A stretch of DNA of 33,730 nucleotides from Flexilinea sp. (GTDB taxonomy: Bacteria; Chloroflexota; Anaerolineae; Anaerolineales; Anaerolineaceae). Location: the NCBI GenBank assembly GCA_026645735.1, contig JAPKMT010000035.1:1-33730 (forward strand), given 5' to 3'. Both the position numbers and the translations under genes were made by a program. This document shows positions 2,713 to 28,486 of the stretch, piece after piece (positions within the stretch are counted from its first letter, which is position 1; every line of letters starts with the position of its first letter). Below the pieces are notes generated by a model. That model ran no database searches, had not been told where the DNA came from, and was given only the letters and a program-made list of their open reading frames with translations.

Positions 2713-2741
2713 ATGGACGGCAATTTACAGGAGTGATTCAA

Positions 2742-7541: not shown

Positions 7542-10412
7542 TTAAAGGATCAGCATGAAGTCATTGATCGGAATCGGTTTCGAAAAAAGGAATCCCTGAC
7601 CGAATCTACAGCCGATACTCATCAGGAAATCAGCCTGATCCTGTTTTTCCACACCCTCACAAACAACCTGGATTCCCAAAGTATGAGCCATTTCAACAAC
7701 CAGATGAATGATTTCACGTGTTTTTTTCGAATTATTGGACTCAGTTAAAAAATTCCGATCGATTTTCAAGGTGTCCAGAGGAATGCGGTTCAGCATAGTT
7801 AAAGATGAATACCCGGCGCCAAAATCGTCGATTGAAATTCGATAATTCAGTTCTTTGGCCTGGTTTAATATATTTTCCACATCATCAATTTCAGAAATCG
7901 CCGTTTCAGTTAATTCGAGTTCAATCAAACCATCCGGAATTGAATATTTTTGGATAATCTCACCCAACCGGTAAATATAATGTTTCTCAGAAAGATGAAC
8001 GCGCGACTGATTGACTGATATTGGAACGACTTTTTCACCGGCATCGATCCGGGAACGAATAAATTTGCAGACTTCTTCCAAAACAAAAAAGTCCAATGGA
8101 ATGATAAAGCCATTTTTTTCAAAAATCGGAATAAAATCGGCTGGCAGTCTGAATCCATGAACCGGATCATTCCAACGGATTAACGCTTCAGCCCCGATTA
8201 TGGAATTCTCTTCCATGTTATATTTTGGCTGGTAATATACTTCAAATTCATGTTTTTCGAGAGCAGATTCCTGTTTTTCTTCGATAGTCTTATAGATTCG
8301 CAGTTTGTCCCTTAAGTAATCATCAAAAAATACAATACCAGAGGATATATTTCTGGCTTCCCTGCGCGCCGTTTCAGCATTATCAATGCAAGCCATGATA
8401 TCCTGATCGTTATCGGAAAGCATGTAAACACCAACATGAATTCCCAATTTAATTACAGTATCATTTTCGCTGTATGAATTCTTTTTCGATTTGATTTCGG
8501 TAATTTTCTTTTCAAGAATTTCTCTGGAATGATAAGGAACCAGACAAAGGAAGTGATCAGCCTTGACTCTCGTACAAATCATACCGGGAACTTCAATAGA
8601 CTGAAGCGTATCTGCCATATATTGAATAATCTGATCACCGGTTCTCCTTCCATAATATTCATTGATGATATCAAAACGATCCACATCGAATGAAATAAAG
8701 GCAAATTTTTCTGATCGGTTCTCTCCAATGATTCTTCCCGCATTTTTTTCCATCCAGTGAAGGTTTTTTAATTGCGTCATATCATCGACAAAAGCCAGGT
8801 TAAAGATCTGTTTTTTGTCCCTCTGATGCGAATCGATCCGATATGCCAATAAATACAAAAACAGGATTGGAAAAACAAGAAAAATAAAGAAAGCATAAGC
8901 AGGTTGTGTATTGATAAAATCAATCAATCGAATCTTTTGCGGCGCGATGAACACGTTTTGATTGATGATTGCAAATCGTTGGAATGAACTGATTGAATTG
9001 ACTGCCTTCCTCAAAATTTGAATCAATCGCGGATCCGCATATTGACTGACAGCATATGAATATTGAAAAGTGAATCCTTGATTGGGATCAATCATTAAAT
9101 CGCGGTATTTCATCTTCCCCAGATTTTTCTGAGCCACCCAGATATTCATGAAACTGACGTCCTGTATGCCTGAATTCAGTGCATCCAGACATGCTTTATC
9201 ACTTTCGAAATAGTTTACTTCTGAATCGCGAAATATTGAACTCAACGATGAGGAAAGCGGAAGAAAACCGATCGGTTCAGCAATTTTGATATGATTTTCC
9301 GTAGAGAATGCGTGGTTCTTTCTGAAAACCGCTACAACTTGATTTTCGAGGAACGCAGGGGATAACTGTAATTTGTTTTTCTCTGCAAACCCCTCATCAA
9401 TTAAAAAATCTCCGATGATGTCAGCTTCATTTTGCTGGAGCTTGTTCAGCGCTTCTTCTAATGAGGTGACCATAACTGGTTGAATTTCGACATGCAGGTC
9501 TCTGGCAGTTTTTCCCAAAAAATCAGCAATGATCCCATGCAAAGAACCGTTTTGATAATAAGATACCGGATCTCTGTCAGGAGAAGCAATCACACGAAAA
9601 ACTTTTTTTTCTGAAAGAAAATCCATTTCATCTTTTGTGAGATTTAAGACTTCACTGTCCGCATGGAAAAAGTATTTCTCAAACAAACGAACTGCAAATA
9701 ATGGTTCATGCAGGCTGATCGAATCCATCGCGCGATTTAATTCACTCAGCAGACGATCATTGTCTTTTCTTACAGCAAAATAAAAAGGCCGCATTGAAAA
9801 ACGAGCAATAACCCTGGCCTCGGGGAAAACCGTTAGTGAGGAAGAAAGAATTCCATCAATTTCTCCATTTTTCAAAGCCAGATAGAGGTTTTCTTTAGAA
9901 TATTCATGCAATTCGGGTAAAAAATCGAATTCAGACATGTTTTCCGTAAGAGGTTTTATAAATTTTGATCCCTGGATAACACCCACTCGAAATTTTGCAG
10001 GAAATACCTGGGCCATTGAATTCATCGGAAAATTTTCTTCTAAGACTGAAATAACTGCATATTCAGTTCCGGATGCTTTAAGGGAAAATGAAAAAACGTT
10101 TTCGGTTTCCGCAGTTTTTTCGACATAATTGACAAGATCAATTTCTCCAGATGCAAGAAGTTGAAGACATTCTTCATAATCACATTGTTTAAAAGAAAAA
10201 TCCCACTCAGCATATTGACTGATTTTCTGTAAATAGTCAAAACCAAAACCGTGATAAATTCCAGATTCATCCTCTTCCTGAAAATGATCCATTGAAAAAT
10301 AACCTACCTTCACAAGCCGCGGAGATGGAACGAAAGTTATAAATATTAAACTAAAAAATAAATCAAGACAAATGACCATTACCCACAAAAGTTTTTTGCT
10401 GCAAATTTTCAT
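7542..10412 (-). CDS. Membrane c-di-GMP phosphodiesterase paralogue: double SBP_bac_3, degenerate GGDEF, EAL
   Basis: 956 residues with the same order as the gene at 2742-5642: signal/anchor (about 7-28), two solute-binding domains, a membrane segment near residue 507, a GGDEF fold and a C-terminal EAL domain. The GGDEF signature position reads RVKADHF, so this domain is also degenerate, probably retained as a regulatory or dimerising fold. EAL residues are conserved: EALIRW, SVNQS, ELTETAI, IDDFGAGYSSL, LKIDRNF, CEGVE and FGQGF. The two paralogues align along the whole EAL part, including the phrase IRWxxxxxGF, but their sensor domains are much less alike, suggesting duplication followed by a change of ligand. 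The start is ATG at 10412; upstream GAAAG is only a weak ribosome-binding site. Confidence 0.92.
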   Translation of the reverse strand: MKICSKKLLWVMVICLDLFFSLIFITFVPSPRLVKVGYFSMDHFQEEDESGIYHGFGFDYLQKISQYAEWDFSFKQCDYEECLQLLASGEIDLVNYVEKTAETENVFSFSLKASGTEYAVISVLEENFPMNSMAQVFPAKFRVGVIQGSKFIKPLTENMSEFDFLPELHEYSKENLYLALKNGEIDGILSSSLTVFPEARVIARFSMRPFYFAVRKDNDRLLSELNRAMDSISLHEPLFAVRLFEKYFFHADSEVLNLTKDEMDFLSEKKVFRVIASPDRDPVSYYQNGSLHGIIADFLGKTARDLHVEIQPVMVTSLEEALNKLQQNEADIIGDFLIDEGFAEKNKLQLSPAFLENQVVAVFRKNHAFSTENHIKIAEPIGFLPLSSSLSSIFRDSEVNYFESDKACLDALNSGIQDVSFMNIWVAQKNLGKMKYRDLMIDPNQGFTFQYSYAVSQYADPRLIQILRKAVNSISSFQRFAIINQNVFIAPQKIRLIDFINTQPAYAFFIFLVFPILFLYLLAYRIDSHQRDKKQIFNLAFVDDMTQLKNLHWMEKNAGRIIGENRSEKFAFISFDVDRFDIINEYYGRRTGDQIIQYMADTLQSIEVPGMICTRVKADHFLCLVPYHSREILEKKITEIKSKKNSYSENDTVIKLGIHVGVYMLSDNDQDIMACIDNAETARREARNISSGIVFFDDYLRDKLRIYKTIEEKQESALEKHEFEVYYQPKYNMEENSIIGAEALIRWNDPVHGFRLPADFIPIFEKNGFIIPLDFFVLEEVCKFIRSRIDAGEKVVPISVNQSRVHLSEKHYIYRLGEIIQKYSIPDGLIELELTETAISEIDDVENILNQAKELNYRISIDDFGAGYSSLTMLNRIPLDTLKIDRNFLTESNNSKKTREIIHLVVEMAHTLGIQVVCEGVEKQDQADFLMSIGCRFGQGFLFSKPIPINDFMLIL

Positions 10413-10685: not shown

Positions 10686-10803
10686 TAATTCGAAATATTG
10701 ACTTGCTATTCGAATTAATCGGGATAAACTTGTTGTTGTGATATTTTTGCGCTTCGCGCAAAAATATCACAACAAAGAATCCTCTCCATATTTCGAATTG
10801 CTG
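10686..10803. repeat. Palindromic repeat element, copy B
   Basis: Ends AATTCGAAATATTG and CCATATTTCGAATTGCTG enclose a hairpin at 10733-10775 with 20-bp perfect arms and a TTC loop. The inner arm reads GTGATATTTTTGCGC. Compared with copy A, TTG has become ATA on the left and CAA has become TAT on the right, so pairing is kept. Confidence 0.85.
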
Positions 10804-11985: not shown

Positions 11986-12027
11986 AATAAACAGAAGAAA
12001 AATTATCAGTCTGGAATCCAGACTGGA

Positions 12028-14049
12028 TTATGCCAGATGGTTTTGATCTTTCGGGAGATTTCCGACTGTATAAATCTGAATCGCACCATCCGAATAATAT
12101 GGGCAGACGGAAATACATCGACCGCAACCACTGCATTTTTCAGGCTGAACTTGCGGGAAGAATCCCTCTCTGCCAATAACAGTAACTTCTTTAAAAGCTT
12201 GCTCAGGACATACAGCCACACATAAATTGCAGCGTATACATGCAGAATAATTCACCTGAGCCAGACCAATTCGATATTTTCGCTTTTCAGTCGCTTTGAA
12301 CGGAACAATCGCTCCGCTGGGACAGCTTGCACCACATTCAGTACAGGCAGGGTCGCAGTAATGACCCATATAATAGATAAACGGTGTGTTGAATCCCTCC
12401 CACCCGCTTTCATAAACCGATGGTTTGATGATGTTCTGCGGACATGCCAAGGCACATTGGCCGCAGCGTATACACAATTTCAAAAAAGTTTCTGGTTCTG
12501 TTTCATCCGGACGCAAGCTGCCAGGCGGACGCAGTACATTCCCAGGTCCAGGGATCAGTGCTTTTTCTTTCAATGTCATCAGTCCTGCAGCAGCAGATCC
12601 CATCAGAATTGTCCCAACTAATTCGCGCCTTCCCGCATCAAATTCATTATGAAATCGAAAAACCTTTTCTTTGTGGAAATCAATGGCGAACTTTGGACAG
12701 ACGTCAGCACATTCCATGCACAGAATACATTCTGCTGGATCCGAGCGAAAACCGTTTTCGGCGTCAATGGCGCCTGTCGGGCAAGTTTTTGGACACTTAT
12801 CGCATTGAGAACAGGCATGTTGATCTACATGTCGTTTTTTGAAGGAGAATTTCGACAAAAGGGCGAGCAGTCCACCAAGCGGACAGATATAACGGCACCA
12901 AAATCTCTTCTCGACAAAATTCAAAATCAGTGCAAAAAACATCGGCAGGGCAGACAACCACCAGAATGCACCGATAAATCGAAATGCCCGTAAGAATCCT
13001 TCATTGAGATATTCTGAGGCTGGTTTGAAAATTAATAGTACCGGTTGAATCGCCATCGAAATCGGATCCAGCCAGAGAAAGGCCAGACTGCCAAATATTG
13101 CCATAATAATAAAAACAATCAAAAAAATCCATTTAAAGCGCCGAAGATTTTGAGAACCGATTATGCGATCATTTTTTCCATAAGATTGAAGGATAGTACC
13201 TGTCGGACAGATCCATCCGCACCAGAAACGGCCAAGAAACAAAGTCAGGATTAAGATCAGTAATGCCGGCCAATATTCGATTAATACTTTCCGACTGGCA
13301 ATCGATGTCAGGATTGCCTGAAACGGATCAGCTAGAGAAAATAAATGATTGGGCAGAAAACTGAGTGAAATTCCTGTGACAGACAGAAACATCAGAATCA
13401 GGAACAGACATAAAAATAATTTATTGAAAAAGCGGCGGTTTAATACCTGATTGCGGTTGTATTTCTTAACACGTTGTCCAATGTTCAATCCAAGACTTTC
13501 CGTAAGCGCACCGGTTGGACAATACCGGATGCATTGATTACAGGAATCACATTCCCTGGAAGGCTTTCCATCATTCGTAGAGACGAAGCGCTGATTTCCT
13601 CTGCCATAAAAATCAATAACTTTTTTCCCTTTTGTTTGACAGACCTGGACACAATTTCCGCAGGAGATGCAGTTCGCTTTGGGAATATCTATCACTTTTA
13701 CAGGTTTTTGAATACCATAATGCGCTGCAAGTTTCTGTACTTCCGGGAGAGCAGGACAGAGAGACAGCAAAAAATTAGCCATTTCTGCCCGCGCATCAAT
13801 GGCTTCGATAGAATCCGTAAAAATTACCATGCCATCTTCAACCTTCGTGTCACACGAAGTGACAATTTTTCTGGTTCCATCGGGGAAAACCACAGAAACC
13901 AGGCACATGCGGCATGCACCGGAAGGAATCAGATTTTCAATATGGCAAAAAGCAGGAATTTCAAATCCATTGGCTTTTGCTGCCTGTAAAATCGTATTTT
14001 CTTCATCGGTCTGAATTTTCAGATGATTTATCGTAATAGCTGTCATCAT
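12028..14049 (-). CDS. NuoG N-terminus / NapH-like membrane / NapG-like polyferredoxin fusion
   Basis: 673 residues. Order: a NuoG-type [2Fe-2S] domain (C35-x10-C46-x2-C49-x16-C66); a helical segment (SLCPALPEVQKLAA) where the His-ligated cluster motif of NuoG/HydA is absent; two [4Fe-4S] motifs (CISCGNCVQVCQT from 127, CDSCNQCIRYCPTG from 167); a NapH-like region with about four membrane segments and two WCxxICPxG motifs (about 280 and 395); a ferredoxin pair (about 425-460); an internal Tat-like GRRELVG followed by a hydrophobic stretch (about 485-505); and a NapG/MauM-like tail with four more [4Fe-4S] motifs. This suggests about eight [4Fe-4S] clusters plus one [2Fe-2S] in one membrane electron wire. 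Its ATG overlaps the stop of the NuoF-like gene (TAATG), so translation is coupled. No [FeFe]-hydrogenase H-cluster motif is present. The redox partners are inferred. Confidence 0.88.
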   Translation of the reverse strand: MMTAITINHLKIQTDEENTILQAAKANGFEIPAFCHIENLIPSGACRMCLVSVVFPDGTRKIVTSCDTKVEDGMVIFTDSIEAIDARAEMANFLLSLCPALPEVQKLAAHYGIQKPVKVIDIPKANCISCGNCVQVCQTKGKKVIDFYGRGNQRFVSTNDGKPSRECDSCNQCIRYCPTGALTESLGLNIGQRVKKYNRNQVLNRRFFNKLFLCLFLILMFLSVTGISLSFLPNHLFSLADPFQAILTSIASRKVLIEYWPALLILILTLFLGRFWCGWICPTGTILQSYGKNDRIIGSQNLRRFKWIFLIVFIIMAIFGSLAFLWLDPISMAIQPVLLIFKPASEYLNEGFLRAFRFIGAFWWLSALPMFFALILNFVEKRFWCRYICPLGGLLALLSKFSFKKRHVDQHACSQCDKCPKTCPTGAIDAENGFRSDPAECILCMECADVCPKFAIDFHKEKVFRFHNEFDAGRRELVGTILMGSAAAGLMTLKEKALIPGPGNVLRPPGSLRPDETEPETFLKLCIRCGQCALACPQNIIKPSVYESGWEGFNTPFIYYMGHYCDPACTECGASCPSGAIVPFKATEKRKYRIGLAQVNYSACIRCNLCVAVCPEQAFKEVTVIGREGFFPQVQPEKCSGCGRCISVCPYYSDGAIQIYTVGNLPKDQNHLA

Positions 14050-17003
14050 TACTCTCTTTTTTGATAATGGACTGCATGGTCATCACAAACCTGAAAACAT
14101 AACCCGCAAGCAACACACAGCGTAGCATCAATTTTTCTTGCGGTCTGATCCGAACCGGCAATTGCCTCAGTCGGACATACTTGCTGACAGCGACCACAGC
14201 CGCTACAGCGATTTGTATCAATTAAATAAACTGAGAATGCCTGACACCGTCCACCGGGACATTCGCCAATGCAGTGAGACTCGTATTCTGCAGCAAACGC
14301 ATTCATCGATGATAAAACCATGACAGGCACATTCTTGCCAAAATTACACTTTGCTCCAATTTGTATCTGGATGGCAATTTCTTTTAAACGAACCAGCGTC
14401 TGCTTTTCAGCTTTATTTTGAAGCAACGAATCCAACAAGCTGATCAGCAGTGGAATTCCGGCCAGACAGACTACACAGCTTCCACAGGATTCCTTTTCGG
14501 CAAACTTTAAACGGTTTTGTACCTCCTGAACCATGCAGCTATTTTCCGGAAAGCTGTGAATCACGGATCCGAGAAATGCTCTGCCATCTTCGAACTGGAT
14601 GTAATCGTAGGGTATATCCAGCTGATCAACCGGGATGATCGGTCCAAAGGGAGAACCAACTTGTACAGCCTTGATTGGATGATGAATTGGAACCCCGCCA
14701 ATTTTTTCAACCAGTGTTTTTATGGACATTCCAAGCTGAATTTCTGCAATACCGGGATGACTGACTGCACCCGTCAGTGATACCAGTGTTGTACCGCTGC
14801 TTTGTACTGAGCCCATTCTGGAAAACCATTCTGCACCATAATTCAAAATAAAAGGGATGCAGCTCCATGTCTTGACATTGCAAACAACCGTTGGTTTTCC
14901 TCTCAATCCGGAAACTGCCGGATATGGCGGTTTTTGCCCGGGTTCTCCAATTAGTCCTTCCATGGCGTGAATCAGATTCATTTCTTCACCGGAGATATAC
15001 GCACCAGCAGCCGGTTGAATGACAACATCCAAACAATAACCGCTGTTTAAAATATTATTACCAACCAGCCCATGTTCCGCTGCATCATGAATAGCTTTCT
15101 CCATCATTTTCACGGCACTCGCGTATTGCTTTCTTATGTAAAGGTATCCTTTGGATGCATGAACTGCATAGGCGCTAATGATCAAACCTTCCAGGATCAA
15201 ATGCGGATTGGAACACATTAATGCCTGATCCTCAATCGAACCAGGATCCCCCGCATCCCCATTGACGATTACATACTTCGTTTCACTTTCCGTGGATCTG
15301 CAGCTATCGAGTTTTTTCCAGGTTGGAAAGCCTGCGCCGCCCCTTCCGCGCAAATTCGCTTTTTTTATTTCTTCAATAATTTGATCCGGATCAGAGGATA
15401 ACGCATTTACCAACGCCTGATAGCCTCCATGGCAGATGTAATCCTCCAAAGATTCCGGATCTAAATCCATCTCGGACTCCGTCAATACACGGGTTTGATA
15501 TGAAAAAAAAGGGATTTCTTTTTCAAGCAGAATGATTTTTTGATTTTCCGGATTCCGGTAAAGGAGTGATCGGATCAAATTTCCATTCATTAATGTTTCG
15601 TCAACGATTTGCTGAACATCTTCCGGTTTGACGTTGACATACAGAACTTTGGCTGGCAGCAGCATGACCAGCGGACCTTGTCCGCAGAAACCGCTGCAGC
15701 CGGTTCGCTTAAGCACAACAGCTTTTCCAATTGGCAAAGATGCAAGGATGCGTTGAAATTCTTCAAAAACTTTCTGACTACCCTGAATCATGCAGCCATC
15801 TCCCAAACATACCGAGATACAGGGAAGTTGATCATCCCCTTCCTGATCCGATATTAATTTTTTAAGTAAGGGATGAATTGAATGAATATCAAATTTTATT
15901 TTTTCAGTATCACCGGTTTCTTCTTTTAAATTGGGTTGGATTTCGGCTGAAATTTCGGGCGCTGATTCCTCAGAAATGGGTGATTCTGAGAAAAGATGAG
16001 AAACCGTTAAGAATTCCGCCTCATAGGCGTTGGCAGAACTTCTCTCAGCGATGACTTTAGAATCCTCCATAAGAGATTTGGAAACAACATTTTTTTCCGC
16101 TTTAAGTGATGCAACAGTCCCCTGCTCCAAATCAGAAATCCGCTCCAGCCCGAGTTGATCAAGCTCATGGGGAGGCCGAATTTTGAGTGTACCGGGGATC
16201 AGAACTGGCAAAAAATCCGGGCAAACAGATAAATCTGTTTCCCGAAACTCATCCGCTTGCCGTTCAGCATCGTTTTTTGCGTCAAATGAAAATGAATGCA
16301 ATCGGATGAAATCAGAGCTTGAAGCAACCTTTTCATCCGACTGATTTTCAACTACGGTTGTTGCCTCGATAGCTTTAATAACAGTATCATGAGGAGTGGA
16401 ATCAGGTTTGACAGATTGAACAAGGCAATCCTTCTCCGGATGAACATTCTCCGTCTGTTTACTACTGTCGAACGATTTTTCAAATGGACTTCCAGGATGA
16501 ATTTCGGTTTTTTGTTCCGTGTCCCTTTTTTTTGTTAACTTACGTAATCCCAGGAGGAAAGCACCCAATAAAGTATCGCCAAGTGTGTTTTTTTGAGGAT
16601 CGGATGATTGCGATTGGCTCTTTTTTTCATCCAGTTCTTCCGCTGCAGGAGGTTGATCCACAAAAAAGAGACCGGATTTTTTCAATTCAGAAACAAAATG
16701 ATCGATGATGTTGTCCACATCCAGTAAGCGTACCTTTGTCAGCGATTGATTTGTCGGTGATAGTATTACTACGGGACCGAATGCAGAAATTTCGTTGATG
16801 GCTGTTTCCATCATATCCACGTTGATTTTTACATTTCTTTTCTTGACAGCTTTTTCAAAAGCTTTTAATAGATTTACTTCTTCAAGTCCTTCTCCATCTT
16901 CAAATAAGCATATCGTGACGGTTGGTTTAGCAGGATCATGATCCTGATACATTTGACGTGTCAGCTGGTTTAATAATTCAGATAATTGCTCTTGATTATT
17001 CAT
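14049..17003 (-). CDS. NuoF-like FMN/Fe-S flavoprotein fusion with extra N-terminal domains and ferredoxin tail
   Basis: 984 residues, much longer than usual NuoF/HndC (about 430-630). Order: an N-terminal domain (about 1-115) shaped like a thioredoxin-type ferredoxin but without its cysteines; a low-complexity acidic linker (about 115-375); a real thioredoxin-like [2Fe-2S] domain (CLGDGC near 398, CSGFCGQGP near 434); a 51-kDa flavoprotein core (GRGGAGFPTWKKL near 552, SLBB domain, ESCGSCVVC near 837 for the N3-type cluster with a later GAKCNFG cysteine); and a C-terminal pair of [4Fe-4S] ferredoxin motifs (CSGCGRCQQVCP, CVACGLCFQVCD). The FMN/NADH pocket differs from canonical NuoF: NADE is NGDA, GEETAL is GEEMNL and NNVET is CNVKT. 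It probably oxidises NAD(P)H or a related donor and feeds the downstream fusion. No clear ribosome-binding site is seen at 17003. Confidence 0.88.
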   Translation of the reverse strand: MNNQEQLSELLNQLTRQMYQDHDPAKPTVTICLFEDGEGLEEVNLLKAFEKAVKKRNVKINVDMMETAINEISAFGPVVILSPTNQSLTKVRLLDVDNIIDHFVSELKKSGLFFVDQPPAAEELDEKKSQSQSSDPQKNTLGDTLLGAFLLGLRKLTKKRDTEQKTEIHPGSPFEKSFDSSKQTENVHPEKDCLVQSVKPDSTPHDTVIKAIEATTVVENQSDEKVASSSDFIRLHSFSFDAKNDAERQADEFRETDLSVCPDFLPVLIPGTLKIRPPHELDQLGLERISDLEQGTVASLKAEKNVVSKSLMEDSKVIAERSSANAYEAEFLTVSHLFSESPISEESAPEISAEIQPNLKEETGDTEKIKFDIHSIHPLLKKLISDQEGDDQLPCISVCLGDGCMIQGSQKVFEEFQRILASLPIGKAVVLKRTGCSGFCGQGPLVMLLPAKVLYVNVKPEDVQQIVDETLMNGNLIRSLLYRNPENQKIILLEKEIPFFSYQTRVLTESEMDLDPESLEDYICHGGYQALVNALSSDPDQIIEEIKKANLRGRGGAGFPTWKKLDSCRSTESETKYVIVNGDAGDPGSIEDQALMCSNPHLILEGLIISAYAVHASKGYLYIRKQYASAVKMMEKAIHDAAEHGLVGNNILNSGYCLDVVIQPAAGAYISGEEMNLIHAMEGLIGEPGQKPPYPAVSGLRGKPTVVCNVKTWSCIPFILNYGAEWFSRMGSVQSSGTTLVSLTGAVSHPGIAEIQLGMSIKTLVEKIGGVPIHHPIKAVQVGSPFGPIIPVDQLDIPYDYIQFEDGRAFLGSVIHSFPENSCMVQEVQNRLKFAEKESCGSCVVCLAGIPLLISLLDSLLQNKAEKQTLVRLKEIAIQIQIGAKCNFGKNVPVMVLSSMNAFAAEYESHCIGECPGGRCQAFSVYLIDTNRCSGCGRCQQVCPTEAIAGSDQTARKIDATLCVACGLCFQVCDDHAVHYQKRE

Positions 17004-17054
17004 TTTAAATTTTTCTTTTCAGTCAATGGATAGGTAAAGATTTCAAGCAGGATA

Positions 17055-17564
17055 TTATCTGCTTTTTCTCCCTGGGACAAAGCCTAAGTTCTTCAACGTC
17101 ATTGTATCAAAAAATAAATCAGATAAAATCTTTTCAGCTTTTTCGGCAGTTACTCGGGTATACACTTGATGATTAATAACAATAATCGGACCGAATCCAC
17201 ATAAACCCTGACAAGGAATCGTCTCTACAGAAACATTGATATCTGTGCCAATGGTTTTCTTTTCTGCAATCATCTGTTTCATTTTTTCATATAAATATAG
17301 ACTCCCTTTTTCACTGCAGCCAAATCCTCCACATATACGAATAATATTTTTATTCCCGAAATCCGAAGCAAACTCATCATAAAAATGAAGTATTTTGTTT
17401 ATTTGAATCCGGGTGGCAGCAAATTTCGACAATAGAACCGGATACGCTTCCTCCGGAATACAGCCAAATTCTTCATGGATCTTCAACAAAGTCGGAATAA
17501 GCCCTCCGGGATCGGACGCGTGGCTTTCAATAATCTCATCAATTATTTTATTGCTTCCTTTCAT
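17055..17564 (-). CDS. NuoE-like thioredoxin-fold [2Fe-2S] subunit
   Basis: About 169 residues, the normal size for NuoE/HndA. An N-terminal helical part with GGLIPTLLKIHEEFGCIPEEA (relatives have 'ALIPVLQEiQ..fGyIP') is followed by a thioredoxin-like domain holding the four cluster cysteines as CGGFGC and CQGLCGFGP. In complex I and bifurcating hydrogenases this subunit pairs with NuoF near the NADH/FMN site. It lies 51 nt before the NuoF-like gene, on the same strand. ATG at 17564 has GGAG 6 nt upstream and is preferred; an ATG at 17576 adds four residues. The family is clear; the assembled complex is inferred. Confidence 0.9.
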   Translation of the reverse strand: MKGSNKIIDEIIESHASDPGGLIPTLLKIHEEFGCIPEEAYPVLLSKFAATRIQINKILHFYDEFASDFGNKNIIRICGGFGCSEKGSLYLYEKMKQMIAEKKTIGTDINVSVETIPCQGLCGFGPIIVINHQVYTRVTAEKAEKILSDLFFDTMTLKNLGFVPGRKSR

Positions 17565-17621
17565 TTCATGCTCCATGATTCCATTGATGAATCTTTTTTT
17601 TGATCGATGATTTAAAAGTTT

Positions 17622-18899
17622 TTATTTTTCTCCGGAATAGGCACAGCGAAAACCACGACTGTTGGAGATGGATGTTTCTGAATTTCCGGATCGGACAGAA
17701 ACACGCACATACCAGGCTTTGCTGCCATAAGATCCGCCACGCAGAACCCTGTAGCTTCCATTTTCAGGGCCTTCCGGATCGGAAATCAACGCATTTCCGA
17801 TATCCTGATAATAGGTATCCGAATACCAGTCGGAAATCCATTCCCACACATTGCCGGACATATCCAGCACTCCGTAAGGACTTTTTCCAGCCAGATATTT
17901 CCCGACTTCGACAGTATCACCAATTTGGTTGTCAAAATTCAAACGGTATTCATCCGGTGGGATGTGTCCCCAGGGATAGATACGATCATCATTTCCCTTG
18001 GCAGCCTTTTCCCATTCAGCCTCTGTTGGAAGGCGTTTTCCTTTCCAATTACAATACACAACCGCCTGAGTCCAGTCCACATTAACCACTGGAAAATTTG
18101 CGTAAGCCGGATTCTGATAATAATCCGAACGACTTTTCGTATTTTTTTCTGCCGGCTCCGTACAAATTCCGGAATCAACACACAATTGATAGGCCTGATT
18201 GGTCACCGTTGTCTTATCGATCCAAAAATCGTTCAGCCAGACTGCATGCAGCGGTTTTTCATCACTATGCGCATCCGCAGCATCGGATCCCATCATGAAA
18301 TCTCCGGCTGCAATTTTCACCATCCCCGCTGTGACTGGAACTTCACTGGCTTTCGGTTGAATACCTGCAGCAGTTAATTCAGAACCGGTCGGCGGAGGAA
18401 CAGTCCATAAAATCAAGGGTGTTTGCGTCGGCACAATCGTTTCGGTAGGATATCGAGTTGCAGACGGAGTAATCAGCTGCGCCAACAGAAGCAATCTTTT
18501 CTCAGACTGAATCCTGTCAACCACTAATGTTGCAGATTGATCTTCCAATTCTGAAGAAAATGAATCCAAACCGGTAATTGTTTTTTCCAAAGCTTCAATT
18601 TGATTGGCATGAAGTGCACTAACAGCGGTTTGTTTCATCCAAACCATTTCCAATTGCTTTTGCGTATGAACATAAAAAGCATACCAGACAATTGAAGCAG
18701 AAATCAATCCAACAACAATTCCATAAAATAACATCCAACTGAAACCGTTTTTTTCCTTCTTATTTCTACGACGCAGCAGTTTGATTCTGTGGGCTGAGGG
18801 GATCAGTACCGGTTTTTCCTCTTCGGGCATCTCCGTATTAACATGCGGATGGATAGAATTGGAGTTTTTTTGTTCAACTTGATTGTCTTTTTCTTCCAT
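17622..18899 (-). CDS. Membrane-anchored SUMF1/formylglycine-generating enzyme-like domain protein
   Basis: 425 residues. A charged cytoplasmic N-terminus with RRRNKKEK is followed by one membrane segment (about 53-75), a coiled-coil-like stretch (about 80-135), a Thr/Pro linker (PTETIVPTQTP) and an FGE-sulfatase domain (about 190-425). The fold marks are MVKIAAGDFMMGSD, PVVNVDWTQAVVYCNW, RLPTEAEWEKAA, GNVWEWISDWY, RVLRGGSY and the ending SRGFRCAYSG. The catalytic domain would face outside the membrane. No sulfatase or other obvious client is in the window, and many members of this fold are not true formylglycine enzymes, so activity is uncertain. It lies about 57 nt before the NuoE-like start and probably opens the operon. 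The start has AGGAC about 7 nt upstream. Confidence 0.88.
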   Translation of the reverse strand: MEEKDNQVEQKNSNSIHPHVNTEMPEEEKPVLIPSAHRIKLLRRRNKKEKNGFSWMLFYGIVVGLISASIVWYAFYVHTQKQLEMVWMKQTAVSALHANQIEALEKTITGLDSFSSELEDQSATLVVDRIQSEKRLLLLAQLITPSATRYPTETIVPTQTPLILWTVPPPTGSELTAAGIQPKASEVPVTAGMVKIAAGDFMMGSDAADAHSDEKPLHAVWLNDFWIDKTTVTNQAYQLCVDSGICTEPAEKNTKSRSDYYQNPAYANFPVVNVDWTQAVVYCNWKGKRLPTEAEWEKAAKGNDDRIYPWGHIPPDEYRLNFDNQIGDTVEVGKYLAGKSPYGVLDMSGNVWEWISDWYSDTYYQDIGNALISDPEGPENGSYRVLRGGSYGSKAWYVRVSVRSGNSETSISNSRGFRCAYSGEK

Positions 18900-18978: not shown

Positions 18979-19100
18979 CAGCGAATCGAAATATGGGGAG
19001 AATTATTTGTTGTTGTGTTGTTTTTGCGCAAAGCGCAAAAACAAAAGGACGATAAATTGTTTGCTTTATTCCAATGGTTCGTTAAAATTTTGAATTGCTA
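18979..19100. repeat. Palindromic repeat element, copy D
   Basis: Ends CAGCGAATCGAAATATGGGG and TTTTGAATTGCTA. The hairpin at 19018-19044 has a 12-bp stem with loop AAA. The left arm is full type 1 (GTTGTTGTGTTG), but the right outer arm has decayed, so outer pairing is lost. Confidence 0.75.
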
Positions 19101-19132: not shown

Positions 19133-19176
19133 AATGGGATTATGACTTTCTCTTGAGAGAAAACCATAATCCCATT
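19133..19176. terminator. Strong bipartite hairpin, candidate bidirectional terminator
   Basis: AATGGGATTATG (19133-19144) pairs with CATAATCCCATT (19165-19176). Inside it TTTCTCT (19147-19153) pairs with AGAGAAA (19156-19162), with a 2-nt internal loop on each side and a 2-nt apex. T-rich sequence flanks it in both directions. It is unlike the repeat family around it. It would end transcripts of the minus-strand secreted-protein gene that stops at 19485, after reading through copies F and E. Confidence 0.5.
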
Positions 19177-19208: not shown

Positions 19209-19331
19209 CAGCGATTCAAAATATGGATTGGCTTTTCGAATAAAGAAAGAAAATATGTTGTTCTTATGGTTTAGCGCTTCGCGCTAAACCATAAGAACAA
19301 CATAGAATTCTTTTTATATTTTGAATTGCTG
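19209..19331. repeat. Palindromic repeat element, copy E
   Basis: Ends CAGCGATTCAAAATATGG and TTGAATTGCTG. The hairpin at 19254-19304 is the longest perfect one here, with 24-bp arms and a TTC loop. The arm is type 2 (GTTCTTATGGTTTAGCGC), different in sequence from type 1 but equally self-complementary. Confidence 0.85.
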
Positions 19332-19484: not shown

Positions 19485-21761
19485 CTATTGAACTACGATG
19501 GAGACCGGTGCGGACATCATCTGCTGCTGCGGTATTTCGAGTTTCCAGCTATAGACACCCGGCGTTAACGCCTCCGTTGGAATATAATACGCCTCTCCGC
19601 CGGTGCAATTCACTCCGCTTTCACCGCAGATCAACGGTCCAAATACCACTTCCTGCCCATCGCTTCGAATCAGCCGGATCTTGTAATAGACCAGATTTAC
19701 CGCGGTTGTGCCCCCTCCATCCACCACTTTCCAGCGGAACAGCGGCCGGGTGGGCACCGTCTCTCCTTCTGCAGGACTGAGGGTCAGAACCTGCGCGCTT
19801 TCACCGACACTGAATACCAGGCGCGCCGATTGACCCGGCATGCCCTGACCCGAAAGCGGCGTGACCTCAATCTGATAATTCAATGCCTCCGGAATCACGG
19901 TGAATCGAAGCGTACAGGCTGTGCCGTCGCACCAGGATGCATCCCGCGGTTTGCTCGTATCCAACAGAACCTCCTGCTGGGAGCCCCATAACTTGATCTT
20001 GAAGGACAGGACGGCTGTACCCGGATCCGTCCACTGGATTTCCGGCGCTGTCTTCGGAATCGTCCCACCATTTTCAGGGGCGATAAATCGTATCGCTTCA
20101 GCCGGCATTACGATTGAGAAGTTGGCGCTGGCAGATCCCCACAGAACTCCGGCCGGTGTCCCGCCGGATATCTTCCACGAATACAATCCGCTTCCGGGAA
20201 ATTTGAATCCCGGCGCAAAGTAGCAATAATCATAGTTGCAGTTTGCTTTGTCAACCGGAACATCCAGCAGCACGATTCCAGTGGCATCGTATGCCGTCAG
20301 CCAGTACGCTCCGGCTCCGGTTATGGCGCGCCAGATGAATGTCGGAATGTCAGTCTGAATCGCTCCGACAGGATATGTCGGCGTCGGATAGGTGTTGGCA
20401 TATGTCTCCGGTTGCCATCCGCTCGCACATGTCGAACAGATTATTGAGAATTGCAGCGGATTCGACCAATGGCTGACAGACGTCTCGCTGTAGCCGCGAA
20501 CCGACCAGTAATAATTGCCGGTTGGCAGTTTCAGATCCACCACGATGGCACATCGTTCCACATCACAGGTAAAGCCTTCCACGTTCCAGGACCGATCCAT
20601 CATCACTTCGCCCGTCGATGAATTATTAACCCGGATGCGATATTCATACACATAATCCTCGACGTTGGAAAACTCAAAACGGATTTGTTCCGGATCATCC
20701 AGTTGACCACTCGGCAGGTATCCTTCCGGCGTGTTGATATTGGGATTCACCTGGAATTCCATCGGACTTGAGTTCGTCGAACCAATCGTATTGGTTGCGA
20801 CCACATACCATGAATATTTCCCTTCGGAAGGCAGTGTTGTTGCGATCGTGCAATGACCGCCCAGACAACTGGCATCCGATGCCGACAGGTTCAGCTCGCC
20901 GCTGCCTCCCCCTTCCAGCGTCCACACCACCTTGTAGGACTCGGCGTTGGATGATGGCAGCCATGTGAAACTTAAGGAGCGTGTCGGATGTTCTCCACTC
21001 GGACTTTCCAGAATCGGCGCCGATGGAGCTGTATCTAATGACAGAATCGTAAAGGGAATGGGATCGGTATTAAGATCTACTCCTCCTAAATCTCCAAAAA
21101 TCTGCCAGGTGTAATTTCCGGGAGGTAATGTTTTTTGATACTGACAAAGCCCTTCGGAACAGGAATAAAGCTGCATCAACCAAAAGCCATTCTCCTTGAA
21201 TCCGAAATGGGGTTCCTCATCAGTACTTCCGCTGACCTCATATTCCCACGCAAAGTTGATCATGCCGGGGGAACTGGAAAATCCTGCGTTCGGTGTAATC
21301 GGAGTGATAGACTCCAGAACGGCATCTTCCCCACCCGGGGGCAGCGTAGCGATCTCAAAAAACGGTAAATCTTCCATAACCCCGATTTCCCAATCCGGGA
21401 TCGGCGTAGCGATTTCGAAAAACGGTAAATCTTCAATTAATCCGATATCCCAGGTGGGAACCGCTGTGGCAATCGGGAAAAACGGTTCAAACGGCATCAC
21501 TTGCCAGACCGGTGCAGGCTCGGTCGGCGGCGGTGGCGGAGGAGGTGGTGCCGTTGCGATCGGCATAATCGGCTGTATCGGGAGCATTTCCACAACTTTG
21601 AATTTTGGCGTCGGTGTCGGGGTAGCTGTCTTCACCAAAAAAAGCTGATTGGGAATCTTGATCGTCAAGTTGTCGCTTGCTTTACTGATGATTCCAATAT
21701 CAGCAAAAAGAAACATGAGAATGATCAGTAAAAACAGACCTGATCGAAATTTTATTTTCAT
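19485..21761 (-). CDS. Secreted multidomain protein with Pro-rich tandem repeats and C-x4-C beta-sandwich repeats
   Basis: About 758 residues. The signal peptide is MKIKFRSGLFLLIILMFLF, followed by a TPTPTP/poly-Pro region and tandem units around EDLPFFEIATP (residues about 40-150). About six beta-sandwich, Fn3-like domains follow. Each has a cysteine pair (CSEGLC, CLGGHC, CDVERC, CNYDYC, CDGTAC, and CGESGVNC last), then a G-x-Y-x-W-x-V/I/L strand such as GKYSWYV or GNYYWSV. The pairs probably form disulfides outside the cell. No enzyme motif, membrane tail or sorting signal is visible. ATG at 21761 follows GGAGG by 4 nt; upstream frame to 21803 has no support. It is paralogous to 22184-23863. 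Its 3' part is visibly richer in G+C than the neighbours. A role as surface or matrix adhesive or scaffold protein is inference. Confidence 0.85.
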   Translation of the reverse strand: MKIKFRSGLFLLIILMFLFADIGIISKASDNLTIKIPNQLFLVKTATPTPTPKFKVVEMLPIQPIMPIATAPPPPPPPPTEPAPVWQVMPFEPFFPIATAVPTWDIGLIEDLPFFEIATPIPDWEIGVMEDLPFFEIATLPPGGEDAVLESITPITPNAGFSSSPGMINFAWEYEVSGSTDEEPHFGFKENGFWLMQLYSCSEGLCQYQKTLPPGNYTWQIFGDLGGVDLNTDPIPFTILSLDTAPSAPILESPSGEHPTRSLSFTWLPSSNAESYKVVWTLEGGGSGELNLSASDASCLGGHCTIATTLPSEGKYSWYVVATNTIGSTNSSPMEFQVNPNINTPEGYLPSGQLDDPEQIRFEFSNVEDYVYEYRIRVNNSSTGEVMMDRSWNVEGFTCDVERCAIVVDLKLPTGNYYWSVRGYSETSVSHWSNPLQFSIICSTCASGWQPETYANTYPTPTYPVGAIQTDIPTFIWRAITGAGAYWLTAYDATGIVLLDVPVDKANCNYDYCYFAPGFKFPGSGLYSWKISGGTPAGVLWGSASANFSIVMPAEAIRFIAPENGGTIPKTAPEIQWTDPGTAVLSFKIKLWGSQQEVLLDTSKPRDASWCDGTACTLRFTVIPEALNYQIEVTPLSGQGMPGQSARLVFSVGESAQVLTLSPAEGETVPTRPLFRWKVVDGGGTTAVNLVYYKIRLIRSDGQEVVFGPLICGESGVNCTGGEAYYIPTEALTPGVYSWKLEIPQQQMMSAPVSIVVQ

Positions 21762-21873
21762 AGACCCTCCAATCTTGAAATCCAATTTGCTATTGCAGTG
21801 CATATTTACAGTTTATTTCATGCGTTAATGACATGAAAAAGCTATTTCACACTTTAAAAAAACGGTTTGACTT

Positions 21874-22183: not shown

Positions 22184-23863
22184 CTATTCGACTGTAATCA
22201 CGGCCGGTTCACTGGATGCATTGAGCTCAGGACTAAACACAGTCCAGGAATAGGCACCCGAAGGCAAAGCATCCGTCGGGATGAAAAAGGCTTCATTCTC
22301 AGTGCAAGTCAGCCCGGATTGGCCGCAGGAGACCGGACCAATCTGTGCTGTATTGCCATCTGAACCGGTGACCTGAATGACAAATGTCAATGTATCGCCC
22401 GTAGACTGCGGAATTTTCCAACGGAAAAGCGGTCTTGGCTGAACGGTCGAATTATTTTTAGGATAGATAATTTCAATCGTCTGTGAAACATCGGATACGG
22501 TGAAATTTAAAGAAGCCGACGCAGCCTGTGTTCCATAGGTGGAATTTGGAGTCACCTCAATTCGATACTGTCCGGCAGGGATCGATGAAAACTCCAGGGT
22601 ACATTGAGTGCCATCACACCATAAGGTTCCCCGATCCATCATCGTATCCAGCAAAATCTGATTGTTACTATCAAAGATGACAACAGAAAAATTTTCAACG
22701 GATGATCCGGAATCAGTCCATACAATCTCAGAGCCGCTTGACCCGATCACTCCGCCATCAACAGGACGGATAAAGGAAATCGCCTGAGGAGCATCTACCA
22801 GCGTAAATGTTGTACTGGCGGAACCCCAGGTGACACCCGTGTTTGTCCCGCCGGTTACCTGCCAGGAATAATTCCCGGCTGCCGGCAGCGAAAATCCGGC
22901 AGAAAACGTGCAGGTTTCATAATTGCAGATCGAGCTGTCGCTCGTATTGTTGTAGAGCACTTTTCCACTGGCATCATACAGCGTGATCCAATAGAAATTC
23001 GCGCCGGTCAGCGTCCGCCATTGGAAAACCGGAATCAGGTCAGCAATTGAGCCGGTAGGACTGACCGGAGTCGGCACGGTATTGGTCTGAAAAGCAGATA
23101 CGGTCGGAGAAACAGGGCTTGTGTATGAAGAGGTCCCTTCGGAACCGGTACTGTAACCGCAGGTTGTACAATAGACATAAAATCCAAGTTCATTCGACCA
23201 GTTACTGGCGGAGTTATCGCTGTATCCGCGAACACGCCAGACATAATTTCCGCCAGGCAGAAATGTATCGGTGGTGATTGAACATTGATATGCTTCGCAG
23301 GAAATCTCATCCACGCTCCAATAGCGATCCATCACAACGCGTGAAGAATAGACATCCAGCACCCGGATGCGGTATTCTTTGACATTATCCTGAACATCGG
23401 TGAAAGTGAACGTGGTGAAGCGGTTATCGTATACGGTACCGGATGGAGAATAGGCGTCCGGCGTTGAAATGTTGGAATTTAAAGTGAAATCAATCGTGTC
23501 CGAATTGACCGTACCTTCCGTATTGACTGCGGCGACATACCAATGATATTCCCCTTCAAATGGCAGCGTGGTTGAAACCGCACAGCGCCCTCCGCCGCAG
23601 CTTGCATCCGAAGCGGAAAGCGGCAAATTTCCGGAATCACCGTTGTCCGAATTCCAATAAACGGTGTAATTGTCGGCATTGGCAGCAGGATTCCAATAGA
23701 ACGTAATCGTCCGCGAAAAATTGTCATATCCTCTCGGGCTGACCGGATTGGGTTTGTCCGGTACGGCCATGAACGCCGGTTCGGCAGCGGCTGCAAAGAA
23801 ATTACCTGTCACACTGATGACAATGATCGATACAATGATCGCGATTTTAAGTTGATTTTTCAT
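22184..23863 (-). CDS. Secreted multidomain protein with C-x4-C beta-sandwich repeats (paralogue)
   Basis: About 559 residues. The signal peptide is KNQLKIAIIVSIIVISVTG with likely cleavage after FFAAAAEP. Five domains then share the order and motifs of the larger paralogue at 19485: CGGGRC, CEAYQC, CNYETC, CDGTQC and the final CGQSGLTC, each followed by a G-x-Y-x-W or G-Q-Y-R-I strand. Phrases such as RVRGYSDNSASNWSN and SWQVTGGTNTGVTWGSAS have direct counterparts there. It lacks the Pro-rich tandem region. ATG at 23863 has AGGAAGG about 6 nt upstream; the frame continuing to 23944 is not supported. It ends in its own terminator, so it is probably monocistronic. It lies downstream of the small LuxR-type gene, with repeat copy G between. 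The function is unknown; it is probably an extracellular structural or binding protein. Confidence 0.85.
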   Translation of the reverse strand: MKNQLKIAIIVSIIVISVTGNFFAAAAEPAFMAVPDKPNPVSPRGYDNFSRTITFYWNPAANADNYTVYWNSDNGDSGNLPLSASDASCGGGRCAVSTTLPFEGEYHWYVAAVNTEGTVNSDTIDFTLNSNISTPDAYSPSGTVYDNRFTTFTFTDVQDNVKEYRIRVLDVYSSRVVMDRYWSVDEISCEAYQCSITTDTFLPGGNYVWRVRGYSDNSASNWSNELGFYVYCTTCGYSTGSEGTSSYTSPVSPTVSAFQTNTVPTPVSPTGSIADLIPVFQWRTLTGANFYWITLYDASGKVLYNNTSDSSICNYETCTFSAGFSLPAAGNYSWQVTGGTNTGVTWGSASTTFTLVDAPQAISFIRPVDGGVIGSSGSEIVWTDSGSSVENFSVVIFDSNNQILLDTMMDRGTLWCDGTQCTLEFSSIPAGQYRIEVTPNSTYGTQAASASLNFTVSDVSQTIEIIYPKNNSTVQPRPLFRWKIPQSTGDTLTFVIQVTGSDGNTAQIGPVSCGQSGLTCTENEAFFIPTDALPSGAYSWTVFSPELNASSEPAVITVE

Positions 23864-23966
23864 ATGCACCTTCCTGTTGGTAAAACGAGATTCAGGAGAA
23901 TTTTGTTTCACCCCTCCCCAAAATTTCATTGATGATTGACTCATCTCTCCATTATAGCCCCTGCCG

Positions 23967-26197: not shown

Positions 26198-26239
26198 TGC
26201 TTTTGCCTCATCTTCTTTAATCATCGCTAATACTTTTTT

Positions 26240-28362: not shown

Positions 28363-28486
28363 CAGCAATTCGAATTATGAGAGGTATTATTTATTGTTGT
28401 GTTGTTTTTGCGAGGAGCGCAAAAACAACACAACAACCGGTTTTTCCTGATTGACCCGAATAGCAAATCGATTTTTCGAATTACTG
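28363..28486. repeat. Palindromic repeat element, copy I
   Basis: Ends CAGCAATTCGAATTATGAG and TTTTTCGAATTACTG. The hairpin at 28394-28436 has 19-bp perfect arms of type 1 (TTGTTGTGTTGTTTTTGCG) and a 5-nt AGGAG loop instead of CTTCG. It lies between divergent genes. Confidence 0.85.

Follow-up and report, generated by a model that had tools for sequence, protein, structure and literature searches.

A NuoG-NapH-NapG fusion encoded beside NuoE and NuoF in Flexilinea: a candidate transmembrane electron wire with an NADH-type module

Polyferredoxins that combine a NapH-like and a NapG-like part in a single chain have been described as dual Sec/Tat proteins, whose last helix is inserted by the Tat pathway after Sec has inserted the others; reporter fusions showed that export of the C-terminal domain of the MLMS-1 polyferredoxin (Q1NSB0) is Tat-dependent, and homologues were noted in chloroflexi (Tooke et al. 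2017, PMC5449189; here and below, published systems are compared as they appear in the parts of the cited papers at hand). The Bfu (HydABC-type) family, which includes Wor-Bfu, provides a second point of comparison, the membrane-bound types named there being Mbh and Nuo (PMC9304861). Here, we describe a locus with features of both. It lies on contig JAPKMT010000035.1 of Flexilinea sp. (assembly GCA_026645735.1), analysed over its positions 1 to 33,730 and referred to at this full length as the window, and comprises genes for a SUMF1-like protein, NuoE, NuoF and a NuoG-NapH-NapG fusion. With moderate confidence, we read it as encoding a quinone-independent, membrane-spanning complex in which a HydBC/BfuBC-type NADH module is joined to a Sec/Tat wire that would let electrons pass between NADH in the cytoplasm and extracytoplasmic enzymes, with the window copy as a derived form. 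The operon combines already known parts in a new way and brings no new kind of chemistry. Based on Pfam and NCBIfam profile searches, the genes are as follows.

17622..18899, minus strand: SUMF1/FGE-like gene, 425 aa; FGE-sulfatase (PF03781), 190 bits
17055..17576, minus strand: NuoE/HydC-like [2Fe-2S] subunit, 173 aa; 2Fe-2S_thioredx (PF01257), 92 bits
14049..17003, minus strand: NuoF/HydB-like subunit, 984 aa; Complex1_51K, 142 bits; NADH_4Fe-4S, 65 bits; Fer4
12028..14049, minus strand: fusion of NuoG (N-terminal part), NapH and NapG, 673 aa; Pfam/NCBIfam domains and alignment

The original prediction, made from the letters of this DNA, had noted four same-strand genes with short gaps and one TAATG overlap. 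The coordinates and the minus strand agree with it, the gaps being 45 bp (SUMF1-like gene to NuoE) and 51 bp (NuoE to NuoF) and the overlap lying between NuoF and the fusion. It had also named an NADH-input half together with NapH-like and NapG-like parts, and each of these domain names is backed by Pfam or NCBIfam. The domains over cut-off in the window include PF01512, PF10589, Fer4, PF01257 and PF13510; SLBB, at 21.7 bits, stays below its cut-off of 27. As predicted, the window proteins searched yielded no H-cluster, no molybdopterin subunit and no pump (antiporter-like) subunit, nor did they yield a Q-module, which sets the locus apart from respiratory complex I with its Q-module and antiporter-like subunits. 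An assignment of the complex as a hydrogenase was rejected: the genome's two other NuoF-type genes, on other contigs, adjoin [FeFe] hydrogenase group A genes (TIGR02512 scores of 457 and 520 bits, the cut-off being 406).

The fusion is built of the following parts.

13480..14043, minus strand: NuoG/BfuA-like domain, residues 3-190 (PF13510, NCBIfam HydA/NuoG); [2Fe-2S] at C35/46/49/66, [4Fe-4S] at C127-137 and C167-177; most likely cytoplasmic
12673..13437, minus strand: NapH-like domain, residues 205-459 (TIGR02163, PF12801, hydropathy); four transmembrane (TM) helices
12568..12630, minus strand: internal twin arginine R474-R475 and TM5, residues 476-494 (hydropathy, motif scan)
12073..12492, minus strand: NapG-like polyferredoxin, residues 520-659 (TIGR00397); four [4Fe-4S]; predicted extracytoplasmic

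The Fer2_4 match covers residues 3-79, the NuoG/HydA N-terminal models reach to about residue 190, and a MauM/NapG model matches residues 474-659. The NuoG, NapH and NapG models score below their whole-protein cut-offs, as expected because only parts of each protein sit in the fusion. The NapH-like domain carries two CX3CP motifs (C277/281 and C385/389) and two [4Fe-4S] motifs (C413-423 and C441-451), and the four motifs of the NapG part (C526-536, C565-576, C604-614 and C639-649) all follow TM5. In total, 36 Cys of the fusion make up one [2Fe-2S] and eight [4Fe-4S] motifs and a further four belong to the two CX3CP pairs, a count that matches the predicted chain of about eight [4Fe-4S] clusters. 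Below, G-numbers denote genomes, g226 a genus, f100, f129, f132 and f134 families, and L-numbers sequence stretches. All 40 Cys are kept in the window, in the isolate Flexilinea flocculi and in G754. Of the 17 other whole homologues with this domain arrangement, 13 retain the full 40, and four, from families f132 and f134, keep 39.

The homology to polyferredoxins and the internal Tat motif make it most likely that the last four clusters, those of the NapG part, lie outside the membrane and the NuoG domain inside. TM5 is weakly hydrophobic (hydropathy 1.17 as compared to 2.0-2.8 for TM1-4), R474-R475 lies directly ahead of it, and TatC is present in the window's genome. Across 49 aligned NapH-NapG rows, the twin-arginine position reads RR in 45, KR in two, FR in one and RF in one; RR occurs in 18 of 20 NuoG-bearing and 27 of 29 NuoG-less rows, and the RF row is G176, the sole NuoG-bearing row without a NapG domain. 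The MLMS-1 polyferredoxin is likewise a single NapH-NapG chain with four clusters outside and RR before a weak TM5 (PMC5449189). As to whether the fusion is a subunit already known, its NapH-NapG half belongs to that described family; the parts of the report at hand describe the polyferredoxin without a NuoG domain, a NuoEF partner or a substrate, whereas the window adds a NuoG [2Fe-2S] cluster, two [4Fe-4S] clusters and the NuoE and NuoF genes, and the NuoG-bearing form is not described there.

The NADH module resembles the Bfu type. The best Protein Data Bank matches of NuoF are 9mqx_B (3e-145), followed by the HydB-type chains 7p5h_B (1e-141) and 8a6t_B. NuoF keeps the ligands of the thioredoxin-type [2Fe-2S] cluster, of N3 and of two C-terminal [4Fe-4S] clusters, as well as the pair C915/C920, which we infer to be ligands of a partly non-Cys [2Fe-2S] cluster; the four [2Fe-2S] ligand Cys of NuoE are also aligned. 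Thus, by alignment, ligands for six BfuBC Fe-S clusters are present in NuoF and NuoE, and the sets fit a BfuBC-type core with a BfuA-like domain. For the Bfu domain set (51K, SLBB, NADH_4Fe-4S, Fer4, BfuC and BfuA), we assumed the correspondence between InterPro and Pfam entries. In the window, in F. flocculi and in G754, NuoF has its full set of 18 cluster Cys and the GRGGAGFP motif, and NuoE has its four Cys. The long N-terminal part of NuoF holds an extra domain without cluster ligands, matched with a profile that was built from the genuine [2Fe-2S] domain of relatives:

16689..16937, minus strand: extra N-terminal thioredoxin-like domain of NuoF, residues 23-105 (i-E 5e-10)

The BfuBC ligand set, the BfuA-like domain and, in several relatives, an AOR neighbour are shared with the Bfu family including Wor-Bfu (PMC9304861). 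The locus differs in that its BfuA-like domain continues into a transmembrane wire within one chain and in that a Glu of the NADH site is lost in the window copy, the site of the aligned relatives outside the genus being intact. In that paper, reductive dehalogenation appears as a use for NADH and ferredoxin from the membrane-bound hydrogenase (Mbh-Bfu); in its text at hand, the words "dehalogenase" and "NapH" do not occur. A search of the open PMC literature, which leaves subscription journals and preprints aside, returned no description of an NADH module combined with a NapH-NapG wire. The operon is not described in the parts at hand of PMC6129605, PMC5736913 and PMC3971608, the "NapH" hits in the first being the strain name NaphS2.

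Several other described systems share single elements with the locus. In Sulfurospirillum multivorans, a NapGH-like pair, akin to NapGH itself, probably brings NapH/NapG chemistry to an extracytoplasmic reductase, PceA; there, NapG and NapH are separate genes, the donor is menaquinol and an NADH module is lacking (PMC4585668). RdhC/PceC has the CX3CP membrane core in common with NapH and differs in its covalent-FMN domain and in lacking the two [4Fe-4S] motifs of NapH as well as NapG (PMC5928378). Finally, NuoF-type NADH entry into an extracytosolic electron pathway has been proposed for 31 MsrQ-like flavinylation gene clusters, where the membrane carrier is an MsrQ-like protein with a flavinylated protein and not NapH-NapG (PMC8238504).

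The same fused domain order was searched for in other genomes, as the original prediction had suggested. Overlapping draws gave five matches in 400 genomes of the phylum (at 1e-60), 67 in 400 of the order (at 1e-40) and 11 in 396 of the class (at 1e-90). NuoG is fused to NapH in 20 genomes, belonging to the window's genus (6), g226 (5), f100 (3), f129 (2), f132 (3) and f134 (1); 18 of these fusions are whole, that of G724 is cut by a contig end and that of G176 lacks NapG. One further NuoG-NapH fusion, in G550, is cut after 223 aa. NuoF adjoins the fusion at all 20 loci, in G609 in the same frame (1267 codons), and NuoE is present at all 14 loci outside the window's genus (for G556, G1032 and G968, as for the wire gene of G803, it was recovered beyond simple calling of open reading frames, with tblastn). 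The window's genus is represented by 11 genomes in the order draw, seven of which had a match.

Outside the genus, the operons carry candidate terminal enzymes. A reductive dehalogenase (RDH) homologue lies next upstream of NuoE at 11 of the 14 loci (cut by a contig end in G710, with its frame broken by a stop in G538), and an AOR gene lies further upstream at nine of these 11, the contigs of G710 and G879 ending before that point. At the other three loci (G868, G1032 and G968), AOR and YdhX-like genes stand upstream of NuoE without a whole RDH gene. The usual company of the RDH/AOR loci is a YdhX-like ferredoxin, ThiF and a small membrane protein, joined by a small cytochrome c gene at four loci of g226 and one of f100. 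Whether a catalytic gene always belongs to the operon elsewhere, a point that the original prediction had raised against itself, is thus answered by lineage: one accompanies it at 14 of 14 loci outside the genus (RDH at 11, AOR at 3) and at none of the six inside, so that the window itself does not have the layout of a reductive dehalogenase operon.

The RDH-like protein passes the TIGR02486 cut-off and matches PceA, its nearest solved relative, at 3.6e-58. Equivalents of PceA Tyr246, Asn272 and Arg305 occur in 15 of 15 rows, and the eight Fe-S Cys in all 14 rows that reach them; the roles of these residues in PceA are taken here as assumed. By pattern, 11 of the 13 RDH-like proteins bear a Tat motif, as do 13 of the 14 YdhX-like proteins. 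Two side observations concern this family. A CxxC...HxxxxH segment resembling a C2H2 zinc finger follows the Tat signal near residue 95 of the RDH-like proteins (L132:6510-7910 and relatives), both of its Cys being kept in the 14 of 14 rows that cover it. In G868, an RDH-like fragment (residues 409-460; L179:12671-12826) between AOR and NuoE is an apparent remnant of a lost gene.

On this basis, NADH would reduce FMN in NuoF, from which electrons would pass through the clusters of NuoF and NuoE to the NuoG [2Fe-2S] and two [4Fe-4S] clusters, then to the cytoplasmic clusters of NapH, across the membrane to the four NapG clusters outside and finally to an extracytoplasmic enzyme. The third, BfuA/NuoG-like subunit would thereby be fused to a dual Sec/Tat polyferredoxin. 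On the cytoplasmic side, ferredoxin might take part in addition to NADH. Outside the window's genus, the terminal enzyme would be the Tat-signalled RDH homologue and/or AOR with its Tat-signalled ferredoxin partner, and neither a quinone nor a pump would probably be needed. The sequences themselves show the domains, the cluster ligands, the Tat motif, the operon partners and the nested position of the window's genus, and the outward direction of flow, the physical complex and the substrate are our inference; outward flow is favored because the commonest neighbor is a reductase by family. The low-potential electron supply of reductive dehalogenases has been called elusive or largely unresolved (PMC5928378). 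The operons of relatives put an NADH-side module, a transmembrane Fe-S wire and a PceA-like enzyme together in genomes without MenD over cut-off, and may show how outside dehalogenase-like or tungsten-type enzymes obtain electrons without quinones. They would also extend Bfu-type modules to a complex that apparently faces both sides of the membrane, and they offer a concrete gene set for expression or knock-out.

The direction could also be the reverse. In that case, which we consider unlikely and which is the main rival to outward flow, an extracytoplasmic AOR-type enzyme would oxidize a compound and the wire would reduce NAD+, perhaps also ferredoxin, like Wor-Bfu turned inside out. Consistent with this, AOR and its Fe-S partner stand beside NuoE-NuoF at loci without an RDH gene (G1032, G968 and the cut locus G550), the partner ferredoxins bear a Tat motif in 13 of 14 cases, and a soluble Wor-Bfu enzyme has been described (PMC9304861). 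The RDH homologue next to NuoE at 11 of 14 loci, a reductase by family, counts against inward flow, as do the three AOR proteins examined, none of which has a Tat motif of its own, and the lack of AOR matches in the seven searched genomes of the window's genus.

Reduction of an organohalide by NADH would be strongly exergonic. With the Bfu ligand set seen in the NADH module, it might be coupled to the reduction of ferredoxin, which is a testable possibility: in the intact Anaerolineae form, exergonic reduction of an outside acceptor (e.g., an organohalide) by NADH might drive endergonic reduction of cytoplasmic ferredoxin, a flavin-based bifurcation across the membrane by way of a single Sec/Tat-inserted Fe-S wire. 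We regard this extension as speculative and improbable; if true, it would amount to quinone-free, pump-free energy conservation in a respiration-like process.

The original prediction had also proposed electron transfer across the membrane to an acceptor or quinone. The joining of a cytoplasmic module to a transmembrane wire upholds the first part, and quinone use appears unlikely because MenD was over cut-off in none of 15 fusion-related genomes (weaker matches in nine), as compared to 7 of 14 control genomes, and PF02621 (MqnA/D-type) gave only weak partial matches over the Pfam cut-off in 3 of the 15 (26.8-38.1 bits). Ordinary quinone chemistry would have NapH exchange electrons with menaquinone, the complex then being a NapGH quinol dehydrogenase or an NADH:quinone oxidoreductase of an unusual kind that does not pump. 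It would be suggested by the NapH and NapG model matches and by the precedent of NapGH as quinol dehydrogenase; in Sulfurospirillum, a NapGH-like pair probably passes electrons from quinol to PceA (PMC4585668). Given the MenD and MqnA/D results, and given that the fused NuoG and adjacent NuoF form a direct cytoplasmic donor at 20 of 20 loci, we find it quite unlikely.

Next, we placed the fusion in a tree built on NapH-NapG columns alone, with 20 NuoG-bearing and 29 NuoG-less rows, the latter being 19 of the 20 order matches with wide regions (L118 omitted), G168, G089, four further records, G627, G820, G833 and G803. G382 (L090/L095, no called fusion reading frame) and G550 were omitted, and G609 was trimmed to its last 676 residues. 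All NuoG-bearing and four NuoG-less rows form one clade (100/99), apart from the DUF362-paired NapH-NapG genes. Within it, the window's genus (seven rows) is sister to g226 plus f100 (97/96) and nested in lineages with RDH and/or AOR; the tree is not firmly rooted, and G176 sits on a long branch. The simplest reading is that RDH and AOR were both lost in the window's genus.

NuoG and NuoF are jointly missing in G820, G803 and G627, so that NuoG and NuoEF behave as one plug-in module. A pairs test of this joint absence gave four of four independent pairs the same way (p = 0.125; four pairs cannot reach 0.05), with the NuoF trait entered by hand as equal to the NuoG trait and G833 omitted because its contig ends upstream. 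For G820 and G833, NuoG may have been lost or never gained. No NuoE or NuoF was labelled near the NuoG-less NapH-NapG genes in the stretches examined, some of only 3-5 kb. The family offers a natural series of module swaps: NuoG and NuoEF are jointly absent at three places in the tree, and one genus is without RDH and AOR. In G627 (L136:10891-13293), NapH-NapG directly follows a thioredoxin-like N-terminal piece, and neither the NuoF core nor NuoG is present; the contig ends just upstream, and the joint may be real or an assembly artefact. At L181 and L182, repeated AOR/ThiF/RDH-like cassettes stand beside a NapH-NapG wire without the NADH module. Other NuoG-less NapH-NapG fusions (from Anaerolineales and an LCP-89 bacterium; L146, L159, L161, L144, L012 and similar) adjoin a DUF362 protein with a Tat-like N terminus, an identity checked by Pfam at five of five loci and judged by size and place at the others. 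Their adjacency suggests that DUF362 proteins of this Tat-like type are redox partners of the NapH-NapG wire.

Several observations count against the proposed complex. In G820 and G803, the wire stands beside AOR and RDH without NuoG, NuoE or NuoF, which means that NADH is not the sole donor in the wire family. None of the three AOR N termini examined has a Tat motif, and four of the 11 genus genomes in the order draw (G615, G621, G706 and G748) have no match at all. Two AlphaFold2 models of the fusion (pLDDT 52 and 57.5), passable only in the [2Fe-2S] domain of NuoG and in the helices of NapH (190-225, 256-280, 300-318 and 352-379, at modest confidence), are too poor to reveal topology. The window's genome is among the three with a weak partial MqnA/D-type match (29.5 bits). 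It also has neither an RDH over cut-off (best score 58.7 bits against 160; 0 of 7 searched genomes of the genus) nor AOR (no match in the same seven), other acceptor types lying outside this search.

The donor side of the window's genus is altered as well. Ala584 of the window NuoF replaces the Glu of the N(A/G)DEGDPG loop, a Glu that is gone in all six NuoF of the genus and kept in 8 of 8 aligned relatives outside it and in both hydrogenase NuoF-type subunits of the window's genome. Judging from the motif, it corresponds to the nicotinamide-contacting Glu of complex I, where a Glu-Ser-Glu triad makes this contact and the Escherichia coli E95Q mutant produces more reactive oxygen (PMC11677225). 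In G520, G724 and G176, the FMN loop and/or cluster ligands of NuoF are also lost, and no NuoE gene was found beside the module in these genomes; NuoE stands there at just three of six genus loci. Taken together, the Glu loss, the FMN-loop and cluster losses and the NuoE gaps make NADH oxidation by the window complex doubtful; of the oxidation of NADH in the cytoplasm as originally predicted, the cytoplasmic NADH-type module is supported and the site itself is changed.

These changes would also fit a relic, or a complex turned to a non-NADH role in this genus (e.g., as a scaffold or a sensor connected with the FN3 proteins encoded nearby), its redox function being ancestral only. Pointing the same way are the ligand-less thioredoxin-like domains added to NuoF (two in G520, G724 and G176), G627 without NuoF core and NuoG in the stretch examined, G176 without NapG and the Tat motif, the lack of RDH and AOR in the genus and the FN3 genes upstream at six of six loci. 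Such a reading has at best a modest chance, in view of the complete set of fusion and NuoF cluster Cys and GRGGAGFP in the window, F. flocculi and G754 and of the low ratios of nonsynonymous to synonymous substitution (dN/dS) between window and F. flocculi (0.12-0.22). We therefore keep to the membrane-spanning redox complex, of which the window copy would be a derived version, with its wiring intact, an altered donor site and the acceptor enzymes of relatives missing, since RDH and AOR are missing in the genus and the nicotinamide-contacting Glu is lost. The copy is probably still redox-active, giving electrons a way out to the cell surface; its wire appears intact and selected, its donor and acceptor being uncertain.

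The genes themselves are conserved. F. flocculi has the same gene order and the same neighbors (two FN3 genes upstream and DUF5343 downstream), with 64-92% protein identity (77% for the fusion). The dN/dS values (fusion 0.12, NuoF 0.22, NuoE 0.20 and SUMF1-like gene 0.12) point to purifying selection on all four genes. Because of this homologue, the low dN/dS and the NuoG-NapH fusions in 20 genomes, the fusion is not a chance reading frame. Two hairpins bear on its transcription.

12007..12025, minus strand: hairpin with T-run, eight pairs, directly after the fusion stop codon; probable transcript end
19133..19176, minus strand: hairpin between the FN3 gene and the SUMF1-like gene, paralleled by a similar one at the corresponding position in F. 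flocculi; probably terminates the FN3 gene

With strong hairpins upstream of the SUMF1-like gene and the smaller one after the fusion stop, SUMF1-like gene, NuoE, NuoF and fusion probably form a single transcript. In the region, 13 terminator-like sites were found as compared to 7.4 expected. Not every hairpin in the window is a terminator, because similar palindromes occur elsewhere in it. These belong to a REP- or MITE-like family, mostly intergenic in the window and in F. flocculi, with arms of about 19-30 nt and a short loop, often ending TTTTTGCGC / GCGCAAAAA; F. flocculi has one beside its NuoE-NuoF gap, where the window has none.

2464-2510, 10733-10775, 19005-19057, 19254-19304 and 28394-28436: palindromes in the window
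9-71, 2237-2283, 4829-4871 and 7128-7176: palindromes in L009

The SUMF1-like gene, by contrast with the original prediction that counted it as part of the complex, is a local addition, found beside the module at two of six genus loci (window and F. flocculi only), with no SUMF1 match labelled at the 14 loci outside. It was rejected as a core subunit, also in view of the 16 PF03781 matches in the window's genome and of the missing Cys pair near RGGS (no Cys in RGGSYGSKAWYVRVS), a copper-binding pair that we take to be a motif of true formylglycine-generating enzymes (FGE). Its protein has a single hydrophobic segment (about 53-71), and the FGE domain is probably outside. The remaining neighbors are as follows.

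19485..21803, minus strand: FN3-repeat protein, 772 aa; N-terminal hydrophobic segment, probably secreted
22184..23944, minus strand: second FN3-repeat protein, 586 aa
11024..11740, plus strand: DUF5343 gene, convergent; linked to the module in the genus, outside the operon

The FN3 genes are unlikely to share the module transcript in the window, given a 585-bp gap and strong hairpins; in G176, the gap between FN3 gene and module is just 26 bp. Compared to F. flocculi, the two FN3 genes show a low dS (0.50 and 0.43) and a high GC content at third codon positions (0.56 and 0.50), with 0.94-1.25 and 0.34-0.41, respectively, for six other compared genes, as if they were very highly expressed; they perhaps encode major surface or sheath proteins. 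Elsewhere in the window, positions 25202-26224 encode an MqsA-type antitoxin with HTH and SocA/Panacea domains, adjoining a family-less reading frame of 123 aa, perhaps as a toxin-antitoxin pair. Finally, two alike SBP_bac_3-GGDEF-EAL proteins (2733-5642, plus strand, and 7542-10412, minus strand) flank a PAS-GGDEF gene in a cluster of cyclic-di-GMP enzymes.

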